Assembly (NCBI RefSeq): GCF_015694405.1
Contig: NZ_JADQDB010000005.1
Location: forward strand, 334,589-398,588
Direction of reading: 5' to 3'
DNA from: Pelagibacterium limicola
Lineage (GTDB): Bacteria; Pseudomonadota; Alphaproteobacteria; Rhizobiales; Devosiaceae
Length of the DNA: 64,000 bases
Shown here in pieces: positions 6,954-23,929 of the stretch (positions are counted from its first letter, which is position 1; each line of letters begins with the position of its first letter). The position numbers were made by a program, and so were the translations under genes. Under the pieces are notes generated by a model, which saw only the letters and a list, made by a program, of their open reading frames with translations, had not been told where the DNA came from and did not search any database.

Positions 6954-7023
6954 CGCGGCCGAAGACGCCCAAGCCGGTTCCCGCGCTGCCGATCCGGGGT
7001 GGCGATCCGGCCCCATAAAACGA

Positions 7024-7074
7024 TTGACAGCGCCAATCTTGTCAGACAGCATAGTAACCAACTGGTTATTTACC
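7024..7074 (+). promoter_or_regulatory. Promoter and operator A of the ABC sugar operon
   Basis: A perfect -35 TTGACA lies at 7024-7029; the best -10 is CATAGT at 7050-7055 with a long spacer. Overlapping and following it is the dyad AACCAACTGGTT, within the 19-bp element AACCAACTGGTTATTTACC (7056-7074). Close relatives of this element occur at 18321-18339 and 18575-18593. The placement fits a repressor site. Confidence 0.6.
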
Positions 7075-7163
7075 GGCAGAAGACCGGAGCACAATAAAAA
7101 TGCCGGAAGTTTGGCCACGGACCTGCCGGAGTGCAGGCCTTGGGAGAAAATGGAGGAGATGTA

Positions 7164-8456
7164 ATGTCACTTGTAATCGATAGACGCAGGATGCTCCTGG
7201 GGAGTGCCGCCGCGCTTTCCGCAGCCTCGCTGGCCGGGGTAAGCCGGGCGATCGCGCAGGAAACGCGCTTGAGGCTGATGTGGTGGGGTTCGGCGCCGCG
7301 CGCCGACCGGACCTTTGCGGTCAGCGAGCTGTTCATGGCGGCCAATGAGAGCGTCGTGATCGACGGCGAAACCGTCGGCTGGGACGACTACTGGCCCCGC
7401 TTGGCGACACAGGTTGCCGGCCGGAATGCGCCCGACGTCATCCAGATGGACTACCGCTACATTTTCGAATATGCCCGCCGCGGCTCGCTGGCCCCACTCG
7501 ATGAATTCCTGGACGGCACGCTCGACCTTTCGGGCTTCGACCAGGCAACGATCGATGGCGGGTCGGTGGATGGCTCGCTCTACGGCGTGAGCCTGGGCGC
7601 CAATTCGGCGGCGATGATGGTCAATGCGGCCGTGTTCGAAGAGCTTGGAATCCCGCTTCCCGACAACAGCCTCACCCTGGCCCGCCTCAAGGAAATCGGC
7701 GACGAGATCACGGCCAATTCCGGCCGACAGGGCTTTTACGGCATTGCCGACGGCTCGGGCGGCGAACCCTTCCTAGAGAACTTCCTGCGGCAGAAGGGCA
7801 AGGCGCTCTATACCGCAGACGGCGAGTTGGCCTTCGATGTCGACGATATCCACGAATGGTTCGAGTTGTGGGCCGAAATGCGGGCGTCGGGTGCCTGCGT
7901 GCCTCCCGATGTGCAGGCCCTCGATCAACGCCAGATCGAGACGGGCATGGTTTCACTTCGTCGTGCGGCGATTTCCTATGCGCACTCCAACCAGCTGGTC
8001 GGCTACCAGGCGATCAATGAAGAACCCATCGTGATGCGCGCCTATCCGCGGATTGCCGACGGCGTTGGCGGCGGACACTACCGCAAGCCGTCGATGTTCT
8101 TCTCGGTCTCGGCCCAGAGCGAGCAGAAGGAGGCCGCAGCAGCGTTCATCAGCTTCTTTGTCAACGACCAGGAAGCTGCTGCCATCCTCGACGTCGAGCG
8201 CGGCGTGCCCGAATCCGCTGCCGTGCGCGATTTCCTTGCGCCGCAACTCAACGAGGCCGGCCGGGCCGGGGTCGAATATATCGGACAACTCGGCGATCTT
8301 GCCGGTCCGCTGCCGCCCCCGCCGCCGCTGGGTGCCGGTGAAATCGACCGGACGCTCGTGCGGGTGAGCGAAGAAGTGGCTTTCGATCAGCACAGCCCGC
8401 GCGCAGGTGCCGAAGCCTTCGTCGCGGAAGCCCAGTCGATCCTCGAACGGGCATGA
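7164..8456 (+). CDS. ABC sugar transporter, extracellular solute-binding protein (family 1)
   Basis: A 430-residue periplasmic binding protein. The N-terminus carries a twin-arginine signal (DRRRMLLGSAAALSAASLAG) and no lipobox cysteine, so it is probably exported folded by Tat to the periplasm. The mature part has family features: RLMWWGSAPRADRT, DVIQMDYRYIFEYARRG, and YGVSLGANSAAMMVNAAVFEELGI. The ATG at 7164 is preceded by GGAGGAGAT. It is the first gene of an operon with two permeases, two oxidoreductases and an ATPase. The ligand is a sugar or sugar derivative by family and context, not identified. Confidence 0.93.
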   Translation: MSLVIDRRRMLLGSAAALSAASLAGVSRAIAQETRLRLMWWGSAPRADRTFAVSELFMAANESVVIDGETVGWDDYWPRLATQVAGRNAPDVIQMDYRYIFEYARRGSLAPLDEFLDGTLDLSGFDQATIDGGSVDGSLYGVSLGANSAAMMVNAAVFEELGIPLPDNSLTLARLKEIGDEITANSGRQGFYGIADGSGGEPFLENFLRQKGKALYTADGELAFDVDDIHEWFELWAEMRASGACVPPDVQALDQRQIETGMVSLRRAAISYAHSNQLVGYQAINEEPIVMRAYPRIADGVGGGHYRKPSMFFSVSAQSEQKEAAAAFISFFVNDQEAAAILDVERGVPESAAVRDFLAPQLNEAGRAGVEYIGQLGDLAGPLPPPPPLGAGEIDRTLVRVSEEVAFDQHSPRAGAEAFVAEAQSILERA

Positions 8457-8464
8457 TCGCTCCA

Positions 8465-8500
8465 CCCCACACCCGCCGGTTCCCATCGGCGGGTGTGGGG
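8465..8500 (+). promoter_or_regulatory. Intercistronic stem-loop after the binding-protein gene
   Basis: A 14-bp perfect stem, CCCCACACCCGCCG with CGGCGGGTGTGGGG, encloses an 8-base loop. No T-run follows, so it is not a full terminator. Such structures between binding-protein and permease genes usually stabilise the upstream mRNA and lower permease expression. Confidence 0.6.
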
Positions 8501-8608
8501 CCTCCCCGCATTCGGATCGGCGCCCCAAGGGCGACGCATCCCGAAGGTTTCCAGCGCGGGAGCGCTCCCTGATCGGTTCTCTTGGCATAAGTGTTGGATC
8601 ATCGGCCC

Positions 8609-9547
8609 ATGTCGACTATCGCATCAAGCCCATCGGGGGTCAGGCCCCGCAAGCAGGGGCCCCTCGTGCGTTTTCTGCGCCGCGATGGCGCGGGCTACAT
8701 GTTTCTCTTGCCCTGGTTCATCGGCTTTTTCGGGCTGACCGCCGGTCCCGCGCTGGCCTCGCTCTACCTGTCCTTCACCAGTTTCGACCTTCTCACCGAC
8801 CCGCGCTGGGTCGGGGCGGCCAATTATGTGCGCATCGCGACAGCAGATCCCAAGTTTGCCGCCTCGATGCGGGTGACGTTCTTCTTTGTGCTGTTTTCCG
8901 TACCGCTGAAACTTGCTTTCGCGCTCCTCGTCGCCCTGGCGCTCAATCGCGGCATGCGCGGCTTGCCCTGGTACCGGGCGATTTTCTACCTCCCTTCCCT
9001 GCTCGGCACCTCCGTGGCCATCGCCGTTCTCTGGCGCCAACTTTTTGCCGGCAATGGGCTGGTCAACACCTTCCTCGCCAATTTCGGCATCGAGGGCCCG
9101 AGCTGGATTTCCAATCCCAACTACTCGCTCTCCACCCTCGTCATCCTCTCGGTCTGGCAGTTCGGCTCGCCGATGATCATCTTCCTTGCCGGCCTAAGGC
9201 AGATCCCACAGGACATGTACGAGGCGGCCAGCCTCGACGGGGCCTCGAAATCGCGCCAATTCTGGAAGATCACCCTGCCGCTCCTGACCCCCGTCGTCTT
9301 CTTCAACGTGGTGGTGCAGACCATCGAGGCGTTCAAGGCCTTCACCCCCGCCTTCATCATTTCGGGCGGCACTGGCGGGCCGATCAACTCGACGCTTTTC
9401 TATACCCTCTATCTCTATCAGGAGGCGTTCGGCTTCTTCCGCATGGGCTATGCTTCCGCGCTGGCCTGGATCCTTTTGGTGATCATCGCCCTTTTCACAG
9501 CCTTTTCCTTCCTCACCGCGCGCTACTGGGTGCATTACGATGACTGA
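8609..9547 (+). CDS. ABC sugar transporter permease (MalF/UgpA type)
   Basis: A 312-residue inner-membrane protein with six hydrophobic segments; the first follows LRRDGAGYMFLLPWFIGFF. The EAA loop that contacts the ATPase is visible as MYEAASLDGASKSRQFWKITLPLL. The ATG at 8609 is preferred; an in-frame GTG at 8591 is also possible. It overlaps the start of the second permease by 8 bp, consistent with translational coupling. It forms the transmembrane heterodimer with the protein encoded at 9540-10445. Confidence 0.92.
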   Translation: MSTIASSPSGVRPRKQGPLVRFLRRDGAGYMFLLPWFIGFFGLTAGPALASLYLSFTSFDLLTDPRWVGAANYVRIATADPKFAASMRVTFFFVLFSVPLKLAFALLVALALNRGMRGLPWYRAIFYLPSLLGTSVAIAVLWRQLFAGNGLVNTFLANFGIEGPSWISNPNYSLSTLVILSVWQFGSPMIIFLAGLRQIPQDMYEAASLDGASKSRQFWKITLPLLTPVVFFNVVVQTIEAFKAFTPAFIISGGTGGPINSTLFYTLYLYQEAFGFFRMGYASALAWILLVIIALFTAFSFLTARYWVHYDD

Positions 9548-10445
9548 TCAGGCGGCATCGGCAAACATGGACGGCAACCGCGGCACCGAGGTCGTCGGGC
9601 TCGACGACAAGCGCAAGCCCTGGGTTTCGCTTCTGTTGCACGCGCTGCTGATCGGCGCGTCCATCCTCATGCTTTACCCGCTGCTCTGGATGCTCTCCGC
9701 CTCGTTCCGCCCGTCCCAGGAAATCTTCAACACGACAACCCTGATCCCCTCGACGGTTTCTCTCGAGGCCTATCCGCGGGGCTGGTTCGGCCTGCGGGTC
9801 GATTTCGGGACCTTCTTCTGGAATTCGCTGGTCATCTCGGTGCTTTCGGTCGCGGGCAATGTCATGGCGTGCTCGCTGGCCGCCTTTGCCTTCGCTCGTC
9901 TTCAGTTTCGGGGGCGCAACTTCTGGTTCGCGATCATGCTGGGCACGCTGATGCTGCCCTATCACGTGACGCTGATCCCGCAATATGTGCTGTTCCTCAA
10001 CCTGGGGTGGGTGAACTCCATCCTGCCGCTGGTGGTCCCCAAATTCCTCGCTGCCGATGCCTTCTTCATCTTCCTGATGGTGCAGTTCTTCCGGGGCATT
10101 CCCAAGGAGCTCGACGAGGCGGCCATGATGGACGGGTGCAGCCCGTGGCGCATCTACTGGCGGATCATGCTCCCGCTCTCCATGCCGGTGCTGGCGACCG
10201 CCGCCATCTTCACCTTCCTGTGGACCTGGGACGACTTCTTCGGGCCGCTCATCTATCTCAATGACATGCGCACCTATACCGTCCAGCTGGGCCTGCGCTC
10301 GTTCGTGGATTCCCAAGGTGGACAGTCGGATTGGGCGGGCCTTTTTGCCATGTCGATCCTCTCGCTGGTTCCGGTCTTCTTCTTCTTTCTGTTCTTCCAG
10401 CGCCTTCTCATCGAAGGCATCGCCACAACCGGCATGAAACGCTAG
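9540..10445 (+). CDS. ABC sugar transporter permease (MalG/UgpE type)
   Basis: A 301-residue membrane protein, the second half of the permease pair. The EAA motif reads KELDEAAMMDGCSPWRIYWRIMLPL. The C-terminus VFFFFLFFQRLLIEGIATTGMKR is typical of MalG-like permeases (QRxxxxGxxxGAVK-like end). The start codon overlaps the preceding permease gene. The start of the following oxidoreductase gene lies 17 bp after the stop. Confidence 0.93.
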   Translation: MTDQAASANMDGNRGTEVVGLDDKRKPWVSLLLHALLIGASILMLYPLLWMLSASFRPSQEIFNTTTLIPSTVSLEAYPRGWFGLRVDFGTFFWNSLVISVLSVAGNVMACSLAAFAFARLQFRGRNFWFAIMLGTLMLPYHVTLIPQYVLFLNLGWVNSILPLVVPKFLAADAFFIFLMVQFFRGIPKELDEAAMMDGCSPWRIYWRIMLPLSMPVLATAAIFTFLWTWDDFFGPLIYLNDMRTYTVQLGLRSFVDSQGGQSDWAGLFAMSILSLVPVFFFFLFFQRLLIEGIATTGMKR

Positions 10446-10462
10446 GCAGGGGAGATCGCGAT

Positions 10463-11485
10463 ATGACGGCTTTGCGCTTTGCTGCCATCGGCATCAATCA
10501 CGGCCACATCTACGGGCAGGTCGACGCCCTTGTTAGGGCCGGGGCCCAACTGACCAGCTTTCACGCGCCCGAGAACGACCTGGCGGCCGCATTCAGCGCC
10601 CAATATCCCGATGCCATGCGCGTTTCGGACCCGCGTGCCATTTACGAAGACGAGAGCATCGGGCTCGTCACCAGCGCGGCCATTCCTGCAGACCGCGCGG
10701 CGATCGCGATTGCGGCCATGGAGCACGGCAAGGACGTGCTGATGGACAAGCCCGGCATGACGACCTTTGGCCAGCTCGCGGCCATAAGAGAGGTCCAGCA
10801 ACGCACCGGGCGGATCTTTTCGATCCTCTATTCCGAGCACTTCGAGAACAGGGCGACGGTTAAAGCGGGAGAGCTGGTCCAGGCCGGCGCCATCGGCAAG
10901 GTGATCAACACCGTGGGCCTCGGACCCCATTCCATTGGCAATTCCAAACGCCCCGGGTGGTTTTTCGAAAAGGACCGGTATGGCGGGATACTTGTCGACA
11001 TAGCCTCCCATCAGGTCGAGCAGTTCCTGTTCTTCACGGGTGCCGAGACAGCCGAGATCGTCTCGGCCAATGTCTTTAACCGTGCCCATCCCGACAAGCC
11101 CGGGCTTGAGGATTTCGGCGATTTCCATTTGAGGAGCCCCGAGGCCACGGGCTATGTCCGGGTCGACTGGTTTTCGCCCGCGCGTCTGCCCACCTGGGGA
11201 GATGGTCGGCTCACCCTCCTGGGCACAGAGGGGTATATCGAAATCCGCAAGAACATCGACATCGCCGGACGCGAGGGGGCCAACCACCTGTTCCTCGTCA
11301 ACGGCGAGGGCGTGCAACACTTCGACTGCAATAGCGTCGATCTGCCCTTCGGGCGCCAGCTGATTGCCGATATCGCCAACCGGACCCAGACGGCAATGCC
11401 CCAATCGCGGTGCTTTCTGGCCATGGAACTGGCGCTCAAGGCACAGGCGCTCGCCGACGCCAACAGGACGACCCCCATAAGATGA
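10463..11485 (+). CDS. Gfo/Idh/MocA family oxidoreductase (1 of 4 in the island)
   Basis: A 340-residue NAD(P)-dependent sugar oxidoreductase-like protein. The N-terminal Rossmann loop is unusual (AAIGINHGHIYGQ), and the usual EKP motif is DKPG (DVLMDKPGMTTF), so cofactor binding may differ from canonical members. The C-terminal half contains the family's substrate-sheet region with GGILVDIASHQVEQFLFF, where the His is a likely catalytic residue. AGGGGAG precedes the ATG at 10463. The next oxidoreductase gene overlaps it by an ATGA. It probably oxidises or reduces the imported sugar. Confidence 0.88.
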   Translation: MTALRFAAIGINHGHIYGQVDALVRAGAQLTSFHAPENDLAAAFSAQYPDAMRVSDPRAIYEDESIGLVTSAAIPADRAAIAIAAMEHGKDVLMDKPGMTTFGQLAAIREVQQRTGRIFSILYSEHFENRATVKAGELVQAGAIGKVINTVGLGPHSIGNSKRPGWFFEKDRYGGILVDIASHQVEQFLFFTGAETAEIVSANVFNRAHPDKPGLEDFGDFHLRSPEATGYVRVDWFSPARLPTWGDGRLTLLGTEGYIEIRKNIDIAGREGANHLFLVNGEGVQHFDCNSVDLPFGRQLIADIANRTQTAMPQSRCFLAMELALKAQALADANRTTPIR

Positions 11486-12576
11486 CGACCAAGATTTTCA
11501 ATGTGGCCATCGTTGGATGCGGGATCGGCCGCTCGCACATGACGCAGGGTTATCTCAACAACGAGGACCGGTTTCGCGTCGTCGCTGTCTGCGACCTCGA
11601 CCCGGTCCGGCTCGACGCCGTTGCGGACGAGTTTGGAATTGCGCGCAGGACGACGCGGTTCGACGATCTTCTGGCGATGGACGATCTGGACGTCATCGAT
11701 ATCTGCACCCCGCCCGCGATCCATTACGGGCAGATCATGGCTTCGCTCGCGGCGGGCAAGCACGTCATCTGCGAAAAGCCGCTGGTGGGGACGCTTCGGG
11801 AGATCGATGCGGTGATGGCCGCCGAAAAGGTTGCCGGCAAACTGCTAATGCCGATCTTCCAGTATCGCTACGGCAACAGCGTTCAGAAAGCCAAGGCGAT
11901 AATAGATGCCGGGATTGCAGGGCGCCCTTATGTCGGGACCGCCGAGACCTACTGGCAGCGCCTGCCCGAATACTATGCCGTGCCCTGGCGGGGCAAGTGG
12001 GCCACCGAACTGGGGGGTGTGCTGATGACGCATGCCATCCACCTGCACGACATGCTGAGCTACCTCATGAGCCCGCCCGCGGCGATTTTCGGACGCATCG
12101 CAACCCGGGTGCACGATATCGAGGTCGAGGATTGCGCCTCGGCCACCCTCGAACTGCAATCGGGAGCGCTGGCCTCGCTCACGGCGACGCTCGGCGCGCG
12201 CGAGGAAATCTCCCGGCTCCACCTTGCTTTCGAGAATGTGACCTTCGAGAGCAGCCATGGCCCTTATAACCCGGGAGAGGACCCCTGGCGGATCGTGCCG
12301 CGCGATGCGGAAACCGCGGCCCGGATCGATGCCCTGCTCGATGGCTGGACGCCGGTGCCGCCGCGCTTTGCCGGTCAGGTCAGGGATTTTTACGATGCGC
12401 TGACGGGAGAGGCGCCGCTGCCCGTGACCACCGCCGATGCCCGGGCCGCGCTCGAACTGATCGCGGGCTTTTATCATTCGCACCGGACCCGGCAGGAGGT
12501 CCGCTTTCCCATCGATACGGGGCACCCGACCTATGAAGGCTGGATACCCGTGCCCCAGCCGACCTCCAATGCCTGA
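11482..12576 (+). CDS. Gfo/Idh/MocA family oxidoreductase (2 of 4)
   Basis: A 364-residue protein with a canonical dinucleotide fold (VAIVGCGIGRSHM) and an intact EKP motif (HVICEKPLVG). The likely active-site region reads WATELGGVLMTHAIHLHDML, with His residues in the expected place. The start codon overlaps the stop of the preceding oxidoreductase (ATGA), which implies coupled synthesis in equal amounts. The pair may act in sequence or as a complex on one sugar. Substrate and direction are unknown. Confidence 0.92.
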   Translation: MTTKIFNVAIVGCGIGRSHMTQGYLNNEDRFRVVAVCDLDPVRLDAVADEFGIARRTTRFDDLLAMDDLDVIDICTPPAIHYGQIMASLAAGKHVICEKPLVGTLREIDAVMAAEKVAGKLLMPIFQYRYGNSVQKAKAIIDAGIAGRPYVGTAETYWQRLPEYYAVPWRGKWATELGGVLMTHAIHLHDMLSYLMSPPAAIFGRIATRVHDIEVEDCASATLELQSGALASLTATLGAREEISRLHLAFENVTFESSHGPYNPGEDPWRIVPRDAETAARIDALLDGWTPVPPRFAGQVRDFYDALTGEAPLPVTTADARAALELIAGFYHSHRTRQEVRFPIDTGHPTYEGWIPVPQPTSNA

Positions 12577-12597
12577 GCCGGAAGGAGACCCGACCCG

Positions 12598-13683
12598 ATG
12601 TCCACCCCGATAACGCTTTCACAGGTCTACAAGCGATATGGCAGCGTCGAGGTCATCCATGGGATCGATCTCGAGATCGAGCCGGGCGAATTCACGGTGT
12701 TTGTCGGCCCTTCGGGGTGCGGCAAGTCCACGCTGTTGCGCATGATCGCGGGGCTTGAGCCCATTTCCGGGGGGAAGCTACTGATCGACGGGGAGGTCAT
12801 GAACGAGGTGCCCGCTGCCGAGCGCGGCATTGCGATGGTCTTCCAGTCCTATGCGCTTTACCCGCACATGTCGGTCTACCAGAACCTCGCTTTCGGGCTC
12901 GAGACCGCCAAGTTGCCCAAGGCGGTCATAAAGGAAAAGGTCCAGCGGGCGGCCGAAATCCTCCAGATCGAACCTCTGCTCGGCCGCAAGCCCAAGCAGC
13001 TTTCCGGCGGGCAGCGCCAGCGGGTGGCCATCGGACGCGCCATCACGCGCGAGCCGCGGATATTTCTGTTCGACGAACCGCTCTCGAACCTCGATGCCGA
13101 GCTGCGCGTGCAGATGCGGGTCGAGATCGCCAAGCTCCATCGCGACCTGGGCAACACGATGATCTACGTCACGCACGATCAGGTGGAGGCCATGACGATG
13201 GCTGACAAAATAGTCGTGCTGCGCCTGGGCCATGTCGAACAGATCGGCGCCCCGCTCGAACTCTACAACAGGCCGGCCAACCGATTCGTGGCCGGGTTCA
13301 TCGGCAGCCCCAAGATGAATTTCATCAAGGCGGCGATCAGTTCGGCGGGCGGGGGGCAGATCGTGCTCGACGTTGCGGGCCAGACCCTCGCGCTGCCCCG
13401 CACCCTCGCAAAGGGCGCGCCGGGCGATGCGGTCGAATTCGGCATTCGCCCCGAACACCTCTCGATCGAGGACGGACCGGGCAAGGTTCCCCTTGCCGAG
13501 GTTTCCATCGACCTTGTCGAGAACCTGGGCGGGCAGACGCTGCTCTATACCAGAGTGCCCGACGGGCAACCCCTCACCATTGTGTTGGACGGGCAGCACG
13601 ATCTCGGTCCGGGGTCGCGGATCACGGCCCGGTTCGATCCGGCCCGCTGCCATGTCTTTGACCGCGAAGGCGCGGTGATCTGA
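12598..13683 (+). CDS. ABC sugar transporter ATPase (MsmK/UgpC type)
   Basis: A 361-residue ATP-binding subunit of a CUT1-type importer. Walker A is GPSGCGKST, the Q-loop is MVFQSYALYPHM, the signature is LSGGQRQRVAIGRA, Walker B is IFLFDEP, and the switch His is VTHDQVEAM. A C-terminal regulatory (TOBE/OB) domain of about 120 residues follows. The ribosome site GGAAGGAGA is strong. It closes the ABC operon and converges on the minus-strand isomerase gene, with only 4 bp between them. Confidence 0.95.
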   Translation: MSTPITLSQVYKRYGSVEVIHGIDLEIEPGEFTVFVGPSGCGKSTLLRMIAGLEPISGGKLLIDGEVMNEVPAAERGIAMVFQSYALYPHMSVYQNLAFGLETAKLPKAVIKEKVQRAAEILQIEPLLGRKPKQLSGGQRQRVAIGRAITREPRIFLFDEPLSNLDAELRVQMRVEIAKLHRDLGNTMIYVTHDQVEAMTMADKIVVLRLGHVEQIGAPLELYNRPANRFVAGFIGSPKMNFIKAAISSAGGGQIVLDVAGQTLALPRTLAKGAPGDAVEFGIRPEHLSIEDGPGKVPLAEVSIDLVENLGGQTLLYTRVPDGQPLTIVLDGQHDLGPGSRITARFDPARCHVFDREGAVI

Positions 13684-13687
13684 GGGG

Positions 13688-14521
13688 CTAGCGGGTGCAG
13701 ACGGTGTTGAAACGCTCGATGCAGGTTGCGAGCGTTTCATCACCGGGACGCTTCCACCAATTGTCCTGCGAGAAGATTTCCACCTCCTGGGCGCCGTGGA
13801 ATCCGGCGGCCTCGATCCAGCCGCGGATGCGCGGCAAGTCGATGACGCCATCGCCCATCATGCCGCGATCGAGAAGGAGGTCCCGGGTCGGCACGAGCCA
13901 GTCGCAGATATGGTGGGCAAGGATCGCGCCCATTTTCCCGGCGCGGGCGATCTGGGCTTCAAGCTCGGGGTCCCACCAGACGTGATAGACGTCGATGGCG
14001 ACGCCGACGCCCTCCCCGAGCTGCTCGCATATGTCGAGCGCCTGACGGAGCGTGTTCACGCAGGCCCGGTCTGCCGCATACATGGGATGGAGCGGCTCGA
14101 TGGCGAGCGGCATGCTCTGCGCCTGGGCATAGGGAAGGATGGCCGCGATGCCCTCAAGGACTTGCTTGCGTGCCTCGCCGATATCTTTCGACGACCCGGG
14201 CAGCCCTCCGACGACCAGGACGAGGCAATCGGCACCCATTGCCGCAGCTTCGTCGATCGCACGCTTGTTGTCCTCGATATTAGCCTGGCGGCCTTCCAAG
14301 GTGTCGGCAGGGAACATGCCGCCCCGGCAATGGCCGGTGAGCTTGAGCCCATTGGTCTGGACGATGCGCACGGCTTCCTTGAGCCCGATGGCATGAACCT
14401 GATCGCGCCAGGGCGAGATGGCGGTAATGCCATGGCGAAGGCAGCCGTCCACCGCTTCGGCAAACCCCCACGCGCCGCGGGTGGTGGCGAGATTGATCGA
14501 GATACGGCCTTCAAGGCTCAT
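13688..14521 (-). CDS. Sugar phosphate isomerase/epimerase family TIM-barrel protein
   Basis: A 277-residue AP-endonuclease-2-like TIM barrel (IolE/IolI/xylose-isomerase type). Likely metal ligands are the Glu in LAIEPLHPMY, the Asp in VAIDVYHVWWD, the His in LAHHICDWL and the Glu in AQEVEIFSQDNW. Such proteins isomerise, epimerise or dehydrate keto-sugars. It is the last gene of the minus-strand catabolic operon, and its start overlaps the end of the enolase-like gene by 11 bp. In related clusters such a protein often acts after a Gfo/Idh/MocA oxidoreductase, which fits here. Confidence 0.9.
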   Translation of the reverse strand: MSLEGRISINLATTRGAWGFAEAVDGCLRHGITAISPWRDQVHAIGLKEAVRIVQTNGLKLTGHCRGGMFPADTLEGRQANIEDNKRAIDEAAAMGADCLVLVVGGLPGSSKDIGEARKQVLEGIAAILPYAQAQSMPLAIEPLHPMYAADRACVNTLRQALDICEQLGEGVGVAIDVYHVWWDPELEAQIARAGKMGAILAHHICDWLVPTRDLLLDRGMMGDGVIDLPRIRGWIEAAGFHGAQEVEIFSQDNWWKRPGDETLATCIERFNTVCTR

Positions 14522-15953
14522 GGGTTTCCTCCAATTTCAGTGCCGACATCGCTGCGCGATCGGGAGCGACGAGCGCCCCCAGCCCCGGCGCACTGGCCAC
14601 GGAAGCAAGCGCAACGCGACCCTTTTCGATCTTGAGACGCGTCCGGCCTAGCGTCGATGCGTAAAGGTCCCCGTGCGCTGCGAGAAAAGCATCCTGTTCC
14701 GCTTTCGGCGCGTTGGGCATGCCATCGACGAAGTGGTGCCCATTGCGCTCGACATGGTCCGCACCCACCAGCCCCGCGAGGACCAGATCCTGCTGCAGGG
14801 CGATGCCCGATTGCATGGTCAGGTCTTCGGCGGACATGAAAAACGGCTTGTCGGGGGTGTCCGCATTCCAGCGCGCGATGCGCGCCCGATTGAGCAGGGC
14901 ACGGTAAAAGCCTTTGCACGATTTCGATGAGATGCCGCGATAGCCGAGATGGCGCGCGCGCAAGAAGGCATCCATATCCGCATCGGATTCATCGATTTCG
15001 AGCGAGACACGCTGCGCGATCCTTTCGACCGGCGCGGAAAGGGCTTTTGCCCTTGCGATAGGCTGCTCGAGAAACAGCAGGCGTTCGCCTAAAAGCCGGA
15101 GCCCGGGGGCGGATTCGAACGCGTCGAGAAAGGCAAGGACATGGCTTTCGTCCTCGAACTGCTCATTGCCATCGAGGGTTGCGCGATAGTGCGGCACCCT
15201 GACCTCGATAATCGATACGATGCGTTCAAGGCGCGCGATATCTGCGTCGATGGCACCGGAAAGCTTGAGCTTGAAGAATTGGTGTCCATAGGCGGCAATC
15301 ACCTCCTCGAGCGTCTCGGGGAGCCCATCGCCGAGCCCGTCGCCATCGCGATCCTGCCGGTCGAGGGCATCGCCCAGGCCGACCGTGTGGCGCACATGGA
15401 TATGGTCGGGTATGGCGAGGCGCGAGAGGAACGAGGCGAAATCGAAATCCGCGAGGTCCCGCGCCGTTGCGCTGGTGATCCCCAGCCTGTTCTCCCGAAC
15501 GAGCGTCAGGGCGGGAACGTCCTCCAGCCGCCCCAGCGCATCGATTATGGCACGATCGACAAGCGCCAGCCCGAAGGAGGCGATGAGGCCGTTAAGCCCG
15601 ACCCGTGCGCAAGCAGAATGGTGTTCGGGCTCGGAAACGGCGTGCAAACCGAAAGCGGTGGCGGCACCTGCGGCCTTGATCGTCTCCATCGCCAGACGGA
15701 GGGAGCCGCGCAACTGGTCGGCGTTGTGTTCCGGCGTCAGGTCGGGATTCTTGTCGAACCATTTGGGCATCAGCATTTCTGCAGACCAGCCCGTTGCCTC
15801 CCGGCCCGACCCGTCGGAAATCCGCACCCGAACAAAGGCCTGATTGGCGCGGTCAACGCGCGCCGCGCCGAACCGGAATGCGAAGCGGAACGGCACGGGG
15901 CGCTCGAAGGCTTCGATCTCCAGAACGCGGATGGTGAGGGGGGAGCCGCCCAT
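14511..15953 (-). CDS. Enolase-superfamily protein (mandelate racemase/dehydratase-like)
   Basis: A 480-residue member of the enolase superfamily. The barrel shows a KxK-like element (FFKLKLSG), the metal-ligand motif LDGNEQFED, a second ligand in FLEQPI, a third region in SLEIDESDADMD, and GYRGISSKSCKG. The superfamily abstracts a proton alpha to a carboxylate, so a sugar-acid dehydratase or racemase is likely. At 480 residues it is longer than the usual 370-400, with extra sequence around residues 60-110 and in the tail. It overlaps the isomerase gene, and the DUF993 gene lies 5 bp upstream. Confidence 0.8.
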   Translation of the reverse strand: MGGSPLTIRVLEIEAFERPVPFRFAFRFGAARVDRANQAFVRVRISDGSGREATGWSAEMLMPKWFDKNPDLTPEHNADQLRGSLRLAMETIKAAGAATAFGLHAVSEPEHHSACARVGLNGLIASFGLALVDRAIIDALGRLEDVPALTLVRENRLGITSATARDLADFDFASFLSRLAIPDHIHVRHTVGLGDALDRQDRDGDGLGDGLPETLEEVIAAYGHQFFKLKLSGAIDADIARLERIVSIIEVRVPHYRATLDGNEQFEDESHVLAFLDAFESAPGLRLLGERLLFLEQPIARAKALSAPVERIAQRVSLEIDESDADMDAFLRARHLGYRGISSKSCKGFYRALLNRARIARWNADTPDKPFFMSAEDLTMQSGIALQQDLVLAGLVGADHVERNGHHFVDGMPNAPKAEQDAFLAAHGDLYASTLGRTRLKIEKGRVALASVASAPGLGALVAPDRAAMSALKLEETHEP

Positions 15954-15958
15954 CGCGA

Positions 15959-17131
15959 TCAGGCCTGCGCGATACCGCGCACGGACATCACCTCGCGCAT
16001 GCGCCGCTCGGCCAGAGCCGGGTCGAGGAGCACGCGCGCCTCATCGGCGAGCCGGTAAAGCTCGGCCAGATGCAGGGCCGATCGGGTGGATTCCTGGCCG
16101 CCGATCATGATGAAATGGTCCTGAAGGCCATTGAGGTAGGCTAGGAACACCACGCCGGTTTTATAGAACCGCGTGGGGGCCTTGAAGATATGGCGCGAGA
16201 GCGCAACCGTGGGCCCCAGGAGGTCGAAGAACGCGTCGTCCTCGCCTTGTCCCAGCGCATCGAGCGCTGCCGATGCCACTGGCGCGATCGCATCGAAAAT
16301 GCCCAGCAGGGCATCGGAATAGCCGTGCGCGTCCCCGGCAATAAGTTCGGCATAGTTGAAGTCATCGCCCGTATACATCCTGACGCCATCGGGCAGGCGC
16401 CGGCGCATGGCGATTTCCTTTTCTTTCGAGAGAAGGGAAATCTTGATGCCATCCACCTTGGCCGCATTCGCGGCAATCATATCGAGTGCCACGTCCATTG
16501 CCCCCATGTGGTCTGCCTGGCCCCAATAGCCGGCGAGTGCGGGATCGAACATTTCGCCCAGCCAGTGAATGACGACAGGCTCCCGGACCTGCGAAAGAAT
16601 GCGGTCATAGACCCTGTGGTAATCGTCCGGGCCCTTGGCCACTGCGGCCAGCGCGCGCGAGGCCATCAGGATGATGCGGCCATTGTGGGCCTCGACCGCC
16701 TCCATCTGCTCCTCATAGGCCGCGATGATCGTGTCGATGGAAAGATCGGGGCCCGGGGCGAGATGGTCGGTCCCCACGCCGCAGGCGATGCGGGCGCCTT
16801 CGCGCGAGGCGGCCTCCCGGAGGGCGCGCGCAATCAGCTCCTTTGCTTCCGGCCAACCCAGCCCCATGCCGCGCTGGGCCGTGTCCATCGCCTCGGCGAC
16901 CCCGAATCCGAGGTCCCAAAGGTGATGGCGGAACGCCAGCGTCCTGTCCCAGTCGATGGCGGGGGCGAGCCAGGGATCGTTATCGGCCAATGGATCGGCC
17001 ACGACATGCGCCGCCGCATAGGCGATGCGGTTGAACCGCGAAGGATCGCGCTTTTCGATCGCAACCGGTGCGTTCTTGATCCTGTAGGGCGAAACCGACC
17101 GGTCCGGGTTGGGCAAGACAAGCGCGGCCAT
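15959..17131 (-). CDS. DUF993 / dihydrodipicolinate synthase-like aldolase family protein
   Basis: A 390-residue protein with the look of the DUF993 branch of the DHDPS/NAL aldolase superfamily. The likely Schiff-base Lys is in KVDGIKISLLS, at the position of the DHDPS lysine strand. Other recognisable stretches are GVGTDHLAPG, VIHWLGEMFDPAL and GDDFNYAELIAGD. The superfamily cleaves or forms 2-keto acids. The ATG at 17131 is chosen because MAALVLPNPDRS starts the domain and sits 4 bp after the upstream gene. With the enolase-like protein it could form a dehydratase-aldolase pair; this is inference. Confidence 0.8.
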   Translation of the reverse strand: MAALVLPNPDRSVSPYRIKNAPVAIEKRDPSRFNRIAYAAAHVVADPLADNDPWLAPAIDWDRTLAFRHHLWDLGFGVAEAMDTAQRGMGLGWPEAKELIARALREAASREGARIACGVGTDHLAPGPDLSIDTIIAAYEEQMEAVEAHNGRIILMASRALAAVAKGPDDYHRVYDRILSQVREPVVIHWLGEMFDPALAGYWGQADHMGAMDVALDMIAANAAKVDGIKISLLSKEKEIAMRRRLPDGVRMYTGDDFNYAELIAGDAHGYSDALLGIFDAIAPVASAALDALGQGEDDAFFDLLGPTVALSRHIFKAPTRFYKTGVVFLAYLNGLQDHFIMIGGQESTRSALHLAELYRLADEARVLLDPALAERRMREVMSVRGIAQA

Positions 17132-17135
17132 GGTC

Positions 17136-18287
17136 CTAGAACTCCAGTTGCGGCACGTCGAGCCAGCGGCGCTCGGCCCAGCTCCTGAGCCCCAGTTCGG
17201 CGAGTTGCACGCCTCTGGCGCCGGCTTCGAGGCCGAACGCCCAGGGCGCATCCTCCGCCACATGACGCAGGAATTGTTCCCACTGCACCTTGAAGCCGTT
17301 GTCGGCTGGCCAGTTGTCGGGCACCTCTTCCCAGTCGGCAAGGAAGTTCATGGTCTGTGGCTGGTCGGGATTCCAAACGGGCTTGGGCGTATTTACCCGG
17401 TGCTGCGTCCAGCACTTGTGGAGCCCGGCCACCGCCGAGCCATGCGTGCCATCGACCTGGAAGGTCACGAGATCATCGCGCCGCACCCGCACCGCCCAGC
17501 TCGAATTTACCGTTGCGACGATCCCGCCCTCAAGCTCGAACATTGCATAGGCCGCATCGTCCGCGTCGGCTTTGTAGCGCTTGCCGGCCTCGTCGACGCG
17601 TTCGGGGATGTGGGTGGCGCCAAGGCATGATACCGCCTTTACCGGGGCAAACGTATGATCGAGCACGTAGCGCCAATGGCACAGCATATCGATGATGATG
17701 CCGCCGCCATCTTCCTTGCGATAGTTCCAGGACGGGCGCTGCGCCTTCTGCCAGTCGCCCTCGAACACCCAGTAGCCGAACTCGCCGCGCACGGAGAGAA
17801 TCTGACCGAAAAAGCCGGCATCGCGCAGCATCTTGAGCTTCATGAGCCCCGGCAGGAACAACTTGTCCTGAACCACGCCATGCTTGAGCCCGGAAGCCCG
17901 TGCTTTCCTGGCAATGTCGATGGCGATGGAAAGATCGTCCGATGTCGGCTTTTCGCAATAGACATGCTTGCCGGCGGCCAGTGCCTTTTCCAGAAGTCCG
18001 GCACGGATCTTGGTCGCCCCGGCGTCAAAGAAAATCTCGTCGTCCTTATTGGTCAGCGCAGCATCGAGGTCGTCCGAATAGCGCGCAACCCCGTGGCGTT
18101 CCGCGATGGCCTTGACCTTGTCGAGGTTGCGCCCGACCAGAATGGGATCGACCATCAGGGTGTCGCCATTGGCGAGCGCGAGCCCGCCCTGATCGCGGAT
18201 GGCCAGTATCGAACGGACCAGATGCTGATTGTATCCCATGCGGCCGGTGATGCCGTGCATGATGATGCCGATGCGGCGCTGCGTCAT
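17136..18287 (-). CDS. Gfo/Idh/MocA family oxidoreductase (3 of 4)
   Basis: A 383-residue oxidoreductase with a modified dinucleotide loop (GIIMHGITGRMGYNQHL) and the EKP motif (HVYCEKPTSDD). The active-site region reads GGGIIIDMLCHWRYVLDH. It is the first gene of the minus-strand operon that continues with the DUF993, enolase-like and isomerase genes. Its promoter lies under operator B, with -10 TACAAT on the minus strand. Co-transcription suggests it performs the first oxidation step on the same substrate. Confidence 0.91.
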   Translation of the reverse strand: MTQRRIGIIMHGITGRMGYNQHLVRSILAIRDQGGLALANGDTLMVDPILVGRNLDKVKAIAERHGVARYSDDLDAALTNKDDEIFFDAGATKIRAGLLEKALAAGKHVYCEKPTSDDLSIAIDIARKARASGLKHGVVQDKLFLPGLMKLKMLRDAGFFGQILSVRGEFGYWVFEGDWQKAQRPSWNYRKEDGGGIIIDMLCHWRYVLDHTFAPVKAVSCLGATHIPERVDEAGKRYKADADDAAYAMFELEGGIVATVNSSWAVRVRRDDLVTFQVDGTHGSAVAGLHKCWTQHRVNTPKPVWNPDQPQTMNFLADWEEVPDNWPADNGFKVQWEQFLRHVAEDAPWAFGLEAGARGVQLAELGLRSWAERRWLDVPQLEF

Positions 18288-18318
18288 TGCGGACCTCCAC
18301 CCTGATGCTCATTGTATT

Positions 18319-18339
18319 GTAACTATCCAGTTACTTACT
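18319..18339 (-). promoter_or_regulatory. Operator B over the promoter of the minus-strand catabolic operon
   Basis: GTAACTATCCAGTTAC is a dyad (GTAACT with AGTTAC) and forms part of the 19-bp element AACTATCCAGTTACTTACT (18321-18339), 17/19 identical to operator C. On the minus strand it sits between a weak -35 (TGTCCA) and two overlapping TACAAT -10 hexamers, the classic position for a repressor. Confidence 0.65.
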
Positions 18340-18364
18340 GGACACGATTTGGCACGTCAAGAAC

Positions 18365-18517
18365 CTAGGCCAGCGCATTTGATCTGGTGCCTCCGTCGTG
18401 GGAGTGCCACCAGTTCCGGCGGCCTGCCTTTAGCGGGCCAATCATGAGGTAGATCAGAGCACTGGCGAGAGCGGCAAATCCGAGCATTTGCAATGTTGTC
18501 CTTTTCGCCCGGGCCAT
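18365..18517 (-). CDS. Possible 50-residue single-pass membrane protein
   Basis: A short open frame between operators B and C, too small for most gene finders. It begins MARAKRTTLQ, contains one hydrophobic segment (MLGFAALASALIYLMIGP, about residues 11-28) and ends with a polar tail (AGRRNWWHSHDGGTRSNALA). The positive N-terminus, single helix and basic flank are what a real small membrane protein would show. No good ribosome site is visible, and its third-position GC is lower than that of its neighbours, so it may be spurious. If real, it shares the regulatory region of the sugar island. Confidence 0.3.
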   Translation of the reverse strand: MARAKRTTLQMLGFAALASALIYLMIGPLKAGRRNWWHSHDGGTRSNALA

Positions 18518-18574
18518 CTTTGCTGCCGGCATCTCAAGGCACATCTGTGGCGAAAGCGGGCTCGATCACAAAAG

Positions 18575-18601
18575 AACTAACCGGTTACTTACTTCTTGAC
18601 A
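18575..18601 (+). promoter_or_regulatory. Operator C and promoter of the Tct transporter operon
   Basis: The element AACTAACCGGTTACTTACT (18575-18593) contains the perfect palindrome TAACCGGTTA. It is followed at once by a perfect -35 TTGACA (18596-18601). The -10 is not clear (AATGTT at 18620 is the best). AGGAGGAACC and GGGAGG lie further downstream before the binding-protein start at 18681. Confidence 0.6.
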
Positions 18602-18680
18602 GGTCTGGACCATCGTTTCAATGTTGTAACCAGCGCTGCGAGGAGGAACCGCCGCGCGAAATTGAAATAGGGAGGATACC

Positions 18681-19718
18681 ATGCGTCTCTTGACGAAGGC
18701 TGCACTTGCTGCGGCTACCTCAGGTCTTGCCTTTATGGCGACCGGGGTCCTGGCTCAGGACTACCCCTGGCAGCCCGACCGTCCCATCAATGTCATTGTG
18801 CCCTGGGGCGCCGGGGGCTCGACCGACCAAGTCATTCGCGTTCTGACCCCCATCATTGCCGATGCGCTCAACCAATCGGTGGTGGTGGTCAACCAGCCGG
18901 GTGCTTCCGGCGCGACCGGCACCGCAGAAGTGCTGGCGGCCCCGCTCGACGGCTATACCTGGACCGGCAATGCCATTGCCAACAATGCCACCTATCACGT
19001 TTCCGGCCTGCTTGAAGATACCGATGTCGGCGATTGGCATGTCTATCTCGCCGTTGCCAATGTGCCGCTGATCAGCGTGCCCGCCGACAGCGAATTTGAC
19101 GATTTCGGCGCATTGCTCGAAGCCTTCCGCGAACGCGGGGAGGGTATCACGGTGGGCACCGCCGGGGTCACCTCGTCGGGCGGCACGGCAATCGCCGCGC
19201 TTTCCCATGCCGGCGGATTCGACTACCGGATGGTTGCCTATGACGGCGGCGGACCGGCCGCAACTGCAACCGCGGCCGGTGAGGTGATGGTCACCAGCCA
19301 GCTGGCGGTCGAACAGGCCGAACTGGTCCGCGGCGGCAGGCTCAAGGCCCTCGCCGTGCTCAGCGATCATCCGTTGGAGCTCGAGGGCGTCGATCCGATC
19401 CCGCCGGTGACCGACTGGCTGCCCGACATGCCGATCTTTCCGGACTACTTCGGTATTCTGGTGCCGGCCGGCGTGCCCCAAGAGGTCATCGCAACGCTCG
19501 ATGCGGTCTGGGAAGATCACATCATGAACGCCGAGACCCTGCGCACCTACGCCATGACCAATGGCGCGGTGATGGCGCCAGCTTATGGCGAGGAGGCGCT
19601 AGCGGCCGTGATGCCCGTCATCATCGAGAAAGCCTGCGCCGCCCTCGCCCGCGACGAAGCGGTCAACGATCCTTCGACCATCGGCATCGATTGCGACACC
19701 CGCAGCCTGATGGACTGA
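18681..19718 (+). CDS. tctC: Tripartite tricarboxylate transporter substrate-binding protein (TctC/Bug family)
   Basis: A 345-residue secreted binding protein. A Sec signal peptide (MRLLTKAALAAATSGLAF, ending near VLAQ) precedes the family signature INVIVPWGAGGSTDQVIR and the motif VVVVNQPGASGATGT. Bug-type proteins bind carboxylates and other small acids in the periplasm and deliver them to TctBA. GGGAGG precedes the ATG. The ligand is unknown; the location in a sugar-oxidation island suggests a sugar acid. Confidence 0.92.
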   Translation: MRLLTKAALAAATSGLAFMATGVLAQDYPWQPDRPINVIVPWGAGGSTDQVIRVLTPIIADALNQSVVVVNQPGASGATGTAEVLAAPLDGYTWTGNAIANNATYHVSGLLEDTDVGDWHVYLAVANVPLISVPADSEFDDFGALLEAFRERGEGITVGTAGVTSSGGTAIAALSHAGGFDYRMVAYDGGGPAATATAAGEVMVTSQLAVEQAELVRGGRLKALAVLSDHPLELEGVDPIPPVTDWLPDMPIFPDYFGILVPAGVPQEVIATLDAVWEDHIMNAETLRTYAMTNGAVMAPAYGEEALAAVMPVIIEKACAALARDEAVNDPSTIGIDCDTRSLMD

Positions 19719-19740
19719 TGGTCTTGTGCACGAAACTCCG

Positions 19741-19763
19741 GCTCGCTCCCCTGGGAGCGGGCC
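19741..19763 (+). promoter_or_regulatory. Stem-loop between tctC and tctB
   Basis: CGCTCCC at 19744-19750 pairs with GGGAGCG at 19753-19759 around a 2-base loop, with partial extension outward. There is no U-tract. It probably sets the ratio of abundant binding protein to membrane subunits. Confidence 0.45.
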
Positions 19764-19784
19764 AAAACCTGGTGAGGGGGCCTC

Positions 19785-20333
19785 ATGTCCGAGCACGCGT
19801 CCGACACAACCGAACAGGACAACCTTGACACGCCAGCGGCGATCAAGGCGGACCTGCTGGCCGGAATGTTCTTTCTCGTCCTTGGCCTCGTGATTGCTTA
19901 TCTCTCCTGGGACATGCCGCGGCTCGAAACCCGCCGCATACACCCCGCGACCATTCCCGGGCTCGTGCCGGGCCTGTTGGGCGGGGCGCTTGCCCTTTGC
20001 GGCTTTCTGCTGGCTCTGAGCAGCGCCCGTGCCGCCCCCCTTGCCAGCGGCTGGAAAACCTTTGGGCACCGGTTCGTGGGCGCCGAGGCCAAGAGGGTCC
20101 TTGCCCTCGCAGGCATGGTTCTCGTCTATTCACTGGGACTTATCGGGTGGCTGCCCTTCTGGCTGGCGACCGGATTGTTCGTCTTTGTTGCGATCGTCGC
20201 CTTTGAAGTCTGGCTCAACGACGCCCCGGCGCCCCTGGCAAGGTCGCTCATCTGGGCGGCGGTGCAGGCTGTCATTGTCGCAGGCGCGGTAACATTTGTA
20301 TTTGAGCGCGGCTTTCTCGTCCGCTTGCCCTGA
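19785..20333 (+). CDS. tctB: Tripartite tricarboxylate transporter small membrane subunit (TctB)
   Basis: A 182-residue membrane protein with about four hydrophobic helices. The first contains DLLAGMFFLVLGLVIAYLSW, followed by PATIPGLVPGLLGGALALCG, the usual TctB pattern. It is poorly conserved in general, and the call leans on size, topology and the position between tctC and tctA. GGTGAGGGGG precedes the ATG. Confidence 0.87.
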   Translation: MSEHASDTTEQDNLDTPAAIKADLLAGMFFLVLGLVIAYLSWDMPRLETRRIHPATIPGLVPGLLGGALALCGFLLALSSARAAPLASGWKTFGHRFVGAEAKRVLALAGMVLVYSLGLIGWLPFWLATGLFVFVAIVAFEVWLNDAPAPLARSLIWAAVQAVIVAGAVTFVFERGFLVRLP

Positions 20334-20353
20334 CTCATGCCGGGATCGATGGG

Positions 20354-21880
20354 ATGTTTGATGGTCTGATCCTGCTGTCGAACGGTGTCGCGCATTTCCT
20401 GACACTGGAATCGCTGTTCAACCTTGCCTGGGCGACATTGCTCGGCATCGTCATCGGTGCGTTGCCGGGTCTGACGGCAACCATGGGCGTCGCGCTGCTG
20501 GTGACGCTGACCTACAAGATGGCCCCCGATCAGGCGATCCTGACGCTGATGTCGGTTTATATCGGCGCGATTTACGGCGGCAGCCGGCCTGCAATCCTGC
20601 TCGCCATTCCCGGAACGCCAGCCAGCGCCGCCACGGCGCTCGATGGGTATCCGCTCGCCCAGCAGGGCAAGGCGGGGCTCGCCATGGGCATCGCGACGAC
20701 CTCCTCGGCGCTCGGCACTTTGGTCGGCATTTTCTTTCTCGCGCTGGTCGCGCCTTTACTGGCCGAGTTCGCGCTGCGTTTCGGGTCTTACGAATTCTTC
20801 TGGCTGGCGCTGTTCGGGGTTGTCATCTCGGGGCGCCTTACTGCCGTCGACAACCCCATCAAGGGCTATATCGCAGGTATCCTCGGCCTGCTGGTCGCCA
20901 TGGTCGGCATGGAAAGCCTGCACGCCCATCAGCGCTTCACCTTCGGTCTGCGCCAGCTTGGCGCTGGCATCGACATCATCCCGGCAATGGTCGGCGCTTT
21001 CGGGCTGGCAGAGATCCTGACGGTGATGAAGCGCAGGTTTGCGCCAAAGATCGTCTCGAGCACCGACCGTGTCATTCCGCGCATCGGCGAGGTTGCAAAG
21101 CACTGGGTGACGACAATCCGCTCGGGGTTGATCGGAACGATTGCCGGCATCATTCCCGGGGTCGGCGAGGATATCGGCGCCTGGGCGTCCTACGCCGCCG
21201 CCCGCCGGGCGTCCAAGGAAAAGGAAAAATACGGCAAGGGCTCCATCGAAGGGCTGGTTGCCGCCGAGACCGGCAATTCCGCCGTTGTCCCGGGCGCGAT
21301 GATTCCCACCCTGACGCTGGCCCTGCCCGGCTCGGCCGCCGCCGCGGTCCTCATTGCCGCTATGTTCATTCACGGCATCCGGCCCGGTCCGATGATCATG
21401 ACCGAGACCCCCGAAGTTCTCTATCAGATCGTGGGCATATTGTTGCTCTCCACTATTGCGATCATGATTTACGGGCTGTCCTTGACCAGAATTCTGGTGA
21501 AAGTGCTTGTCGTCCCCCGCGAAAAGCTGATGCCGGTGGTTTATGTCTTGTGCGTTGTTGGCTCATTTGCCATTACGCAGCGAATGTTCGACGTCTACGT
21601 CATGATCGCGTTCGGGATCATCGGGTTCATCCTCAGGGAAATGAAATATCCGATGGCCCCGCTGGTTCTTGGCATTATCCTGGGCGAACTGCTCGATGTG
21701 AACCTTCGCCGCGGCCTGCTTTTGACAGACGGAGACGTAACGCCCTTCTTCACGCGTCCTATCAGCGCCGTTCTCTGGATCGTCATTCTGATGACCGTGC
21801 TGATGAGCATTCCAAGGATAAACGGTTTTGTCACAGGACTCTTTAGGTCAAGCTCCCCGGACAACGGCAAAGCCGGCTGA
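20354..21880 (+). CDS. tctA: Tripartite tricarboxylate transporter large membrane subunit (TctA)
   Basis: A 508-residue permease with 10-12 membrane segments. The conserved N-terminal region reads LPGLTATMGVALLVTLTY, then YIGAIYGGSRPAILLAIPGTP. The second repeat contains GTIAGIIPGVGEDIGAWASY. It is the catalytic subunit of the secondary, ion-driven TTT transporter. It follows tctB by 20 bp, and a TetR gene starts 22 bp after its stop (or overlaps it if an upstream TTG is used). Confidence 0.95.
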   Translation: MFDGLILLSNGVAHFLTLESLFNLAWATLLGIVIGALPGLTATMGVALLVTLTYKMAPDQAILTLMSVYIGAIYGGSRPAILLAIPGTPASAATALDGYPLAQQGKAGLAMGIATTSSALGTLVGIFFLALVAPLLAEFALRFGSYEFFWLALFGVVISGRLTAVDNPIKGYIAGILGLLVAMVGMESLHAHQRFTFGLRQLGAGIDIIPAMVGAFGLAEILTVMKRRFAPKIVSSTDRVIPRIGEVAKHWVTTIRSGLIGTIAGIIPGVGEDIGAWASYAAARRASKEKEKYGKGSIEGLVAAETGNSAVVPGAMIPTLTLALPGSAAAAVLIAAMFIHGIRPGPMIMTETPEVLYQIVGILLLSTIAIMIYGLSLTRILVKVLVVPREKLMPVVYVLCVVGSFAITQRMFDVYVMIAFGIIGFILREMKYPMAPLVLGIILGELLDVNLRRGLLLTDGDVTPFFTRPISAVLWIVILMTVLMSIPRINGFVTGLFRSSSPDNGKAG

Positions 21881-21902
21881 CCCCAAACCGGAAAAGAGCC
21901 GC

Positions 21903-22535
21903 GTGCGTGACGCGTTGCGCACCCAGGGGACCATTCTCGCGGCCGCGCGGTATGAATTCACCCATCGCGGGTTCGAGGGCGCGCGCATCGATGCCATTGC
22001 CAAGCGCGCCAAGACCAACAAGCGCATGCTCTACCATTATTTCGGCAACAAGGAGGGGCTCTATAAACGCGTCCTCGTGGAGGCGTACAAGGAAATCCGC
22101 CAGGGCGAACGCGAACTCGAGCTTGACCAGTACGACCCGGTGGGCGCGGTGGAAACGCTGGTGCGGTTCACCTTCCGCCATTTCCTGCGCAGCCCCTGGT
22201 TCATCGCGCTCCTGACCAATGAGAACCTTTTGCGCGCCCGCTTCCTCAAGACGCTGCCCGAAATGCGCGGCTTGCACTCGCCCCTGGTCGAACAACTGCG
22301 CACGCTGATCGAAAGGGGAGCCAGGGAAGGCATCTTCCGCAAGGACGTCGACCCCGTCCAACTCTATATTTCGATCGCCGCGCTGGGCTATTTCTACGTT
22401 TCCAACAACGCCACGCTCTCGGTCATCTTCCAGTCCAACCTCTCGGACGACGACAAGCTCGATTCCTGGGAGAACCACGCGGTGACGGTCATCCTCGATC
22501 ACCTCAAGACGCTATCCCCGTCCCCCCGGGCGCAA

Positions 22536-22547
<12 letters not shown>
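21903..22547 (+). CDS. TetR/AcrR family transcriptional regulator
   Basis: A 214-residue regulator. The N-terminal helix-turn-helix reads ILAAARYEFTHRGFEGARID, then RAKTNKRMLYHYFGNKEGLY, the TetR signature. The C-terminal half is a helical ligand and dimer domain. The GTG at 21903 is chosen because GGAAAAGAG lies just upstream and the HTH starts where expected; a TTG at 21828 would overlap tctA by 53 bp. As the only regulator inside the island and the last gene of the Tct operon, it is the best candidate to bind operators A, B and C. This is inference. Confidence 0.88.
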
Positions 22548-23825
<1,278 letters not shown>

Positions 23826-23929
23826 GTAACTGATCCCTGGTTAAAGATTGACGACGCAGGTGAGGTCGCCGATGTCGACGCGGTTGTCACCCTAGACCAG
23901 AACGCGCCGAGGCGGCAACGATGCGGGAC

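Follow-up and report, generated by a model that had tools for sequence, protein, structure and literature searches.

What reads the 19-bp element that recurs at three promoters of a sugar-type gene island in Pelagibacterium limicola, and does it join the operons behind these promoters into one regulon? The element lies in a 64-kb stretch of contig NZ_JADQDB010000005.1 (positions 334,589 to 398,588; hereafter, the window) before an ATP-binding cassette (ABC) uptake operon, before a catabolic operon that begins with gfoC, and before a tripartite tricarboxylate-type transporter operon, tctC-tctB-tctA, which continues into a gene for a TetR-family regulator. An earlier note, made from the sequence alone, had proposed that one regulon spans all three operons, with the TetR protein as its candidate regulator. 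Both proposals are supported by what follows, and we put the probability at roughly 85% that the three sites are operators of this TetR/TetR_C_29 protein, which would be the repressor of a regulon for an uncharacterised carbohydrate pathway. We infer the binding and repression by TetR, the inducer and the carbohydrate-type substrate from direct observations, namely conserved sites, their placement, their co-occurrence with TetR, the sites at relocated operons, and a difference in the recognition helix.

Sites in the window, the genome and relatives

The three 19-mers (beginning at 7056, 18321, and 18575) are present without mismatches where the earlier note had placed them. With up to three mismatches allowed, the window holds four matches, the fourth being the other strand of site 1, where 0.02 would be expected. 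That note had also suggested searching the genome and its relatives: in the whole genome (3,472,577 bases) the three sites are the only matches at up to two mismatches, with none in the reversed control. At three mismatches, two further matches appear (one again the other strand of site 1), and the reversed control gives six.

A scoring matrix built from 85 sites of relatives, with the window and its genus excluded, gives the three sites scores of 34.1, 30.4, and 20.6; site 3 has AG instead of GT at its left end. Every other score of at least 3 in the window comes from reading these sites shifted or on the other strand. The reversed window peaks at 3.5, and 40 first-order random 64-kb sequences have a best score of 7.9 and a mean maximum of 1.5. 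A degenerate fourth version, formerly proposed just upstream of 23825, is not supported: it scores -6.2 (rank 17 of 127,950 positions), below the chance maximum, and by eye it overlaps the ribosome-binding region of its gene. A perfect GTAAC-N6-GTTAC dyad elsewhere in the same genome (C5:137752), which scores 4.2 and 5.9 on its two strands, was likewise not counted as a site.

Among relatives, the family sample consisted of 60 regions around TetR relatives, annotated by tblastn with the window proteins. A matrix match was found in 59 of them (the exception is L204), at a threshold that gave three matches when the same regions were read backwards. The distinct sites, the window's three included, number 135; by the gene that follows, 57 were classed to gfoC, 48 to the ABC solute-binding gene, 19 to tctC, 8 to tetR, and 1 to gfoD, with 2 left unassigned. 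Records of Rhizobium, Ensifer, Agrobacterium, Chelativorans, Microvirga, and Marinobacterium carry the same operator.

The site has also been kept where an operon has moved away. Twenty distant matches were taken from among the matches listed for 136 family genomes, in stretches mostly of 12 kb (one of 8.8 and one of 3.8 kb), and 18 of them precede a relocated operon: an ABC solute-binding operon homologous to that of the window in 17 cases, and a tctC operon in one. Of these 18 sites, some lie about 10 to 138 kb from tetR and others on separate contigs, with the tct site of G049 at a distance of about 1 Mb; in none of the 20 stretches did tblastn detect a TetR relative at E up to 1e-10. The same site thus stands before orthologous operons, relocated ones included, and the cluster is very probably controlled as a single unit by its TetR regulator, as judged from these comparisons. 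The other two distant sites may be extra regulon members or chance; one (L223) is just before a DapA-like ORF (open reading frame) behind another ABC ATPase, and the other (L225) falls where another ABC solute-binding ORF begins, all named by eye.

Two side observations concern the number and reach of the sites. At L190:1295, a strong operator precedes the aligned start of a GfoD homolog by about 80 bp. This homolog shares 68% identity with the window's GfoD, whose own gene has no acceptable site, and the gfoD gene is therefore a possible regulon member outside the window. Two operators about 50-100 bp apart are frequent at ABC promoters of the Devosia family (16 of 16 in L206-L221 at a matrix score of at least 9, and also in L169, L172, L182, and L183), whereas the window has one.

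Operator shape and promoter placement

The aligned sites of relatives define the conserved element as a 16-bp dyad, GTAACYRNNYRGTTAC, followed by TTA on one side. The 19-bp motif with its dyad core was real but began 2 bp inside the left arm. TetR regulators have a palindromic operator at their target promoters, and the dyad in the aligned sites is such a palindrome, with binding by TetR predicted. As for the claim that all three sites have the same orientation, this is correct for the + strand; seen from the genes, however, the gfoC site runs the other way.

The one-sided extension, which had been described as unusual for a TetR dimer site, is found on one arm in most sites when orientation is fixed by the gene. 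Outside GTTAC, TT occurs at gfoC sites on the gfoC-distal arm in 51 of 54 and on the other arm in none; at ABC sites on the downstream arm in 35 of 35 and upstream in 1; and at tctC sites downstream in 18 of 19 and upstream in 4. Sites scoring below 24 were dropped from these counts for gfoC (57 to 54) and ABC (48 to 37, of which 35 are unique). As the matrix contains the TTA columns, the presence of TT on one arm is partly selected for; its absence from the opposite arm, and the gene-linked side on which it lies, are not. The asymmetry is not a product of the choice of orientation. In 80 records chosen by DUF993, a domain encoded in the catabolic operon, TT is on a single arm at 73 of 104 sites, on both arms at 9, and on neither at 22.

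Placement relative to the promoter falls into two modes. At 43 of 57 gfoC sites, the sequence TTGAC begins about 37-39 bp ahead of the operator centre. The distance is 36-38 bp at 26 of 48 ABC sites (about 36-39 bp at 28 of 48), and at 16 of 19 tctC sites TTGAC begins 15-16 bp past the centre. If the -35 start is taken as about -36, the operator centre would be at about +1 at gfoC and ABC, which is the position of a repressor, and at about -52 at tct. Five family regions that have no tct genes beside tetR (L155 and L163-L166) carry a tct-type site and -35 ahead of tetR itself, which argues for autoregulation. A scan of the region with the promoter consensus gave one site, within tctA, fewer than in shuffles.

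In the mechanism that we propose, a TetR dimer would sit on the 16-bp dyad. At gfoC-DUF993 and the ABC operon, it would lie over -10/+1 and block RNA polymerase until a pathway metabolite bound TetR and released it from these operators. At tctC-tctB-tctA-tetR, the dimer would be just upstream of the -35, where it might repress weakly or act in a different way; since tetR lies downstream of tctA, the tct site would also make the circuit self-regulating.

The TetR protein and alternative readings

The regulator contains PF00440, the TetR_N helix-turn-helix domain (E 4.8e-15), and PF17938, TetR_C_29 (E 5.9e-40), both above cut-off. Its model (predicted local distance difference test, pLDDT, of 83.5) has the all-helical TetR fold, and the 50 fold matches listed are all TetR-family by their titles, except that those with uninformative titles we take to belong there as well. 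As a side observation, three loci (L146, L006, and L007) have a pair of adjoining, convergent TetR paralogs that share 50-52% and 71-75% identity with the window's single TetR.

Operator and regulator occur together. An exact pattern, GTAACYRNNYRGTTAYTT, is present in 89 of the 136 family genomes, with two matches in total in the reversed control. TetR (E up to 1e-64) is found in 87 of the 136, all 87 of which have the motif, as do 2 of the 49 others; these two exceptions are G051, where a TetR fragment is 60% identical, and G090, whose TetR is 48% identical. The concordance holds within each of three genera, where the counts of genomes with both, TetR only, motif only, and neither are 4/0/0/9, 68/0/1/6, and 11/0/1/7. 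Of the 80 DUF993 records, 68 have TetR, and 50 of these carry the motif. The 12 without TetR include a single motif-bearing record (L044, where a TetR fragment lies at the record edge); of the other 11, only 5 inform, because 6 end close to or upstream of gfoC.

A single residue of the protein, two after NKRxxY in an alignment of 130 TetR rows, largely follows the presence of the site. All 109 rows whose locus has a site carry tyrosine there; of the 21 whose locus has none, 18 carry histidine and 3 tyrosine (L199, L200, and L204). The protein model puts this position in a helix (residues 65-72) that, by analogy, would be the recognition helix. Of the histidine rows, 17 are from Bradyrhizobiaceae-type loci and one is from Azospirillum, and no GTTAC dyad with a 6-bp spacer was found in the 18 motif-less loci as an operator for the Bradyrhizobium TetR branch.

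Several points weigh against TetR as the repressor that reads these sites. Some of the 136 genomes had themselves supplied regions from which the exact pattern was derived, and the TetR cut-off of 1e-64 was chosen post hoc; at 1e-60, the table becomes 88 with both, 1 and 1 with one alone, and 46 with neither. Part of the co-occurrence reflects the island being gained or lost as a unit. The helix difference may represent one or two events, as the 18 histidine rows are from few lineages, and the three tyrosine rows are from loci without a site. In addition, the tct sites have low matrix scores (13.5-28.6), and -52 is a non-classical position for a repressor.

How, then, might the sites be read otherwise? 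That an AT-rich word recurs by chance is refuted by the numbers (0.02 matches are expected in the window at three mismatches, and 89 of 136 genomes have the exact pattern, for two reversed-control matches overall), and we give this reading practically no weight. On the comparisons made around TetR, it is very unlikely that another factor encoded in or near the island reads the sites while TetR only travels with them. TetR binding is itself a prediction, and the window does hold a LysR-type gene (named by eye) at 23930; but relocated operons retain the site in stretches with no TetR relative, 50 of 51 motif-bearing DUF993 records have TetR and the 51st has the fragment at its edge, and the recognition helix differs in motif-less records that bear TetR. 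Two TetR dimers could instead occupy overlapping dyads, with the TTA arm as part of the second. At gfoC sites, pseudo-dyads shifted 2 and 4 bp toward the TTA arm have complementarities of 0.53 and 0.38 (0.68 at the main centre), and the sites with TT on both arms in other bacteria would suit such an arrangement; it is nevertheless quite improbable, given that the repetition of TTAC accounts for the shifted dyads and that no separate second dyad stands out further along.

The placement of the tct site bears on what a single TetR dimer does. It could repress gfoC and ABC from +1 and activate tct from about -52, the one-sided arm giving direction; the bimodal placement would agree with this, and the TTA arm points to the -35 in 18 of 19 tct sites. 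Site orientation with respect to the promoter, however, differs between gfoC and ABC, which both look repressed, and upstream-acting repressors are common, so that we regard activation of tct as unlikely. A related idea is an inherently directional operator, a dyad with a fixed TTA arm kept in tens of genomes in any gene orientation, that would work in two modes, as a block at +1 of the enzyme and ABC promoters and by some action from -52 at tct-tetR; on the conserved arrangement of the sites, we consider it tentative and rather doubtful.

The island and its known relatives

The features of the cluster are collected in the table. The gap between gfoC and tctC contains an extra ORF in two relatives (a TSUP-like membrane protein in L151 and a sugar-isomerase-like protein in L146, both named by eye); in the window this gap (in its 18340-18560 part) is only about 390 bp.

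Table. Operators, presumed promoter elements, and genes of the island (window coordinates).
Feature	Position	Strand	Basis and remarks
TTGACA, presumed -35 of ABC promoter	7024..7029	+	Sequence
Operator 1, 16-bp core GTAACCAACTGGTTAT (7054-7069) with one-sided TTTACC	7054..7074	+	Sequence and matrix score; centre at about +1 of the ABC promoter
ABC operon: solute-binding protein, two permeases, two Gfo/Idh/MocA oxidoreductases, ATPase	7164..13683	+	ORFs; solute-binding protein and oxidoreductases named via Pfam, permeases and ATPase by eye
Catabolic operon: gfoC (Gfo/Idh/MocA, 17136-18287), DUF993, enolase-superfamily-like protein, xylose-isomerase-like TIM (triosephosphate isomerase) barrel	13688..18287	-	ORFs and Pfam; enolase-superfamily-like protein had no match in the Pfam search and was named by eye
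Operator 2, core GTAACTATCCAGTTAC (18319-18334) with TTACT	18319..18339	-	Sequence and matrix score; overlaps presumed -10/+1 of the gfoC promoter
TTGACG, presumed -35 of gfoC promoter	18360-18355	-	Sequence
Operator 3, AGAACTAACCGGTTAC (18573-18588) with TTACT	18573..18593	+	Adjoins the tct -35 on its upstream side; centre at about -52
Presumed tct promoter, TTGACA-N17-CAATGT	18596..18624	+	Sequence; TTGAC spacing recurs in relatives, CAnnnT -10 recurs by eye
tctC, tctB, tctA, tripartite tricarboxylate-type transporter	18681..21880	+	ORFs; tctC named via Pfam, tctB and tctA by eye
TetR-family regulator (TetR_N and TetR_C_29), candidate reader of operators 1-3	21828..22547	+	Start overlaps the end of tctA

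A short stem-loop directly follows the ABC operator in the presumed messenger RNA leader of L178 and 31 other loci among L153-L221, with a 6-bp stem and a loop that is mostly GGGGAG; the window has a weak analogue at 7073-7087. Across these 32 leaders (18 distinct), which are gapless, share this loop type, and were hand-chosen from 51, pair 1 is kept in 27 of 32 and pairs 2-6 in all 32, while pair 5 is A-T in 15, G-C in 15, and G-T in 2, with changes also at pairs 3 and 4. GC-rich hairpins are found in 39 of 51 ABC leaders versus 13 after one shuffle, in 5 of 55 gfoC leaders versus 6, and in 1 of 13 tctC leaders versus 3. A search of Rfam gave no match in window positions 6900-24000. The stem-loop is possibly a leader RNA element or the site of an RNA-binding protein.

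With its Gfo/Idh/MocA oxidoreductases, xylose-isomerase-like TIM barrel, DUF993 protein, and two uptake systems, the island encodes a pathway whose substrate we infer to be a carbohydrate or sugar acid. The DUF993 protein is 74% identical to Sinorhizobium meliloti SMc04132, which has a solved structure (4DNH), and beyond this it resembles proteins of the dihydrodipicolinate synthase/N-acetylneuraminate lyase type. The closest known S. meliloti cluster is SMc04132-SMc04139, and in Ensifer records TetR and the operator have the ABC operon on one side and gfoC-DUF993 on the other. From this gene order, SMc04134 is likely the S. meliloti counterpart of the TetR protein; the available extracts of one study name it solely among the transcription factors of computed networks (PMC11387232). 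According to the available extracts of another, SMc04132, SMc04133, SMc04135, SMc04138, and SMc04139 are listed in a proteome comparison as lowered in phbC phaR compared with phbC in TY medium and undetected in low-phosphate medium (PMC12542648), and their joint lowering, as far as those extracts go, fits co-regulation.

Our literature search found no paper on DUF993, none on TetR, operator, and DUF993 together, and no report of this regulon, with RegPrecise lying outside the search. The proposed regulon assigns a regulator, its target sequence, and a definite set of genes to an uncharacterised pathway with DUF993, several Gfo/Idh/MocA oxidoreductases, and two transporters. As the pathway occurs in many alphaproteobacterial records, including Ensifer, it can be tested in S. 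meliloti, and a compound that releases TetR would point to the pathway substrate.

Which known regulators does this TetR resemble? The closest solved structure is 3NPI, the TetR protein DIP1788 of Corynebacterium diphtheriae (E 6.2e-33 by profile, 28% identity by fold), to which the structure listings attach no function. Among the nearest relatives that are both solved and named, by profile (4x1e, 3loc, and 6z1b; E 1.9e-13 to 2.6e-12) and by fold, is the TetR-family regulator RutR of Escherichia coli. RutR reads a palindrome and controls catabolic genes, and its operator, TTGACCANNTGGTCAA, is a sequence unlike the one described here. The window's TetR is not itself a RutR, as it scores far below the NCBIfam equivalog cut-offs (42 bits vs 368 for TIGR03613 and 35.7 vs 230 for NF011584). 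We regard the regulon as a newly found, well-conserved case of a known type, a TetR regulon with a palindromic operator, whose unusual part is the conserved directional arm—a clean case for how a symmetric dimer uses an asymmetric site.

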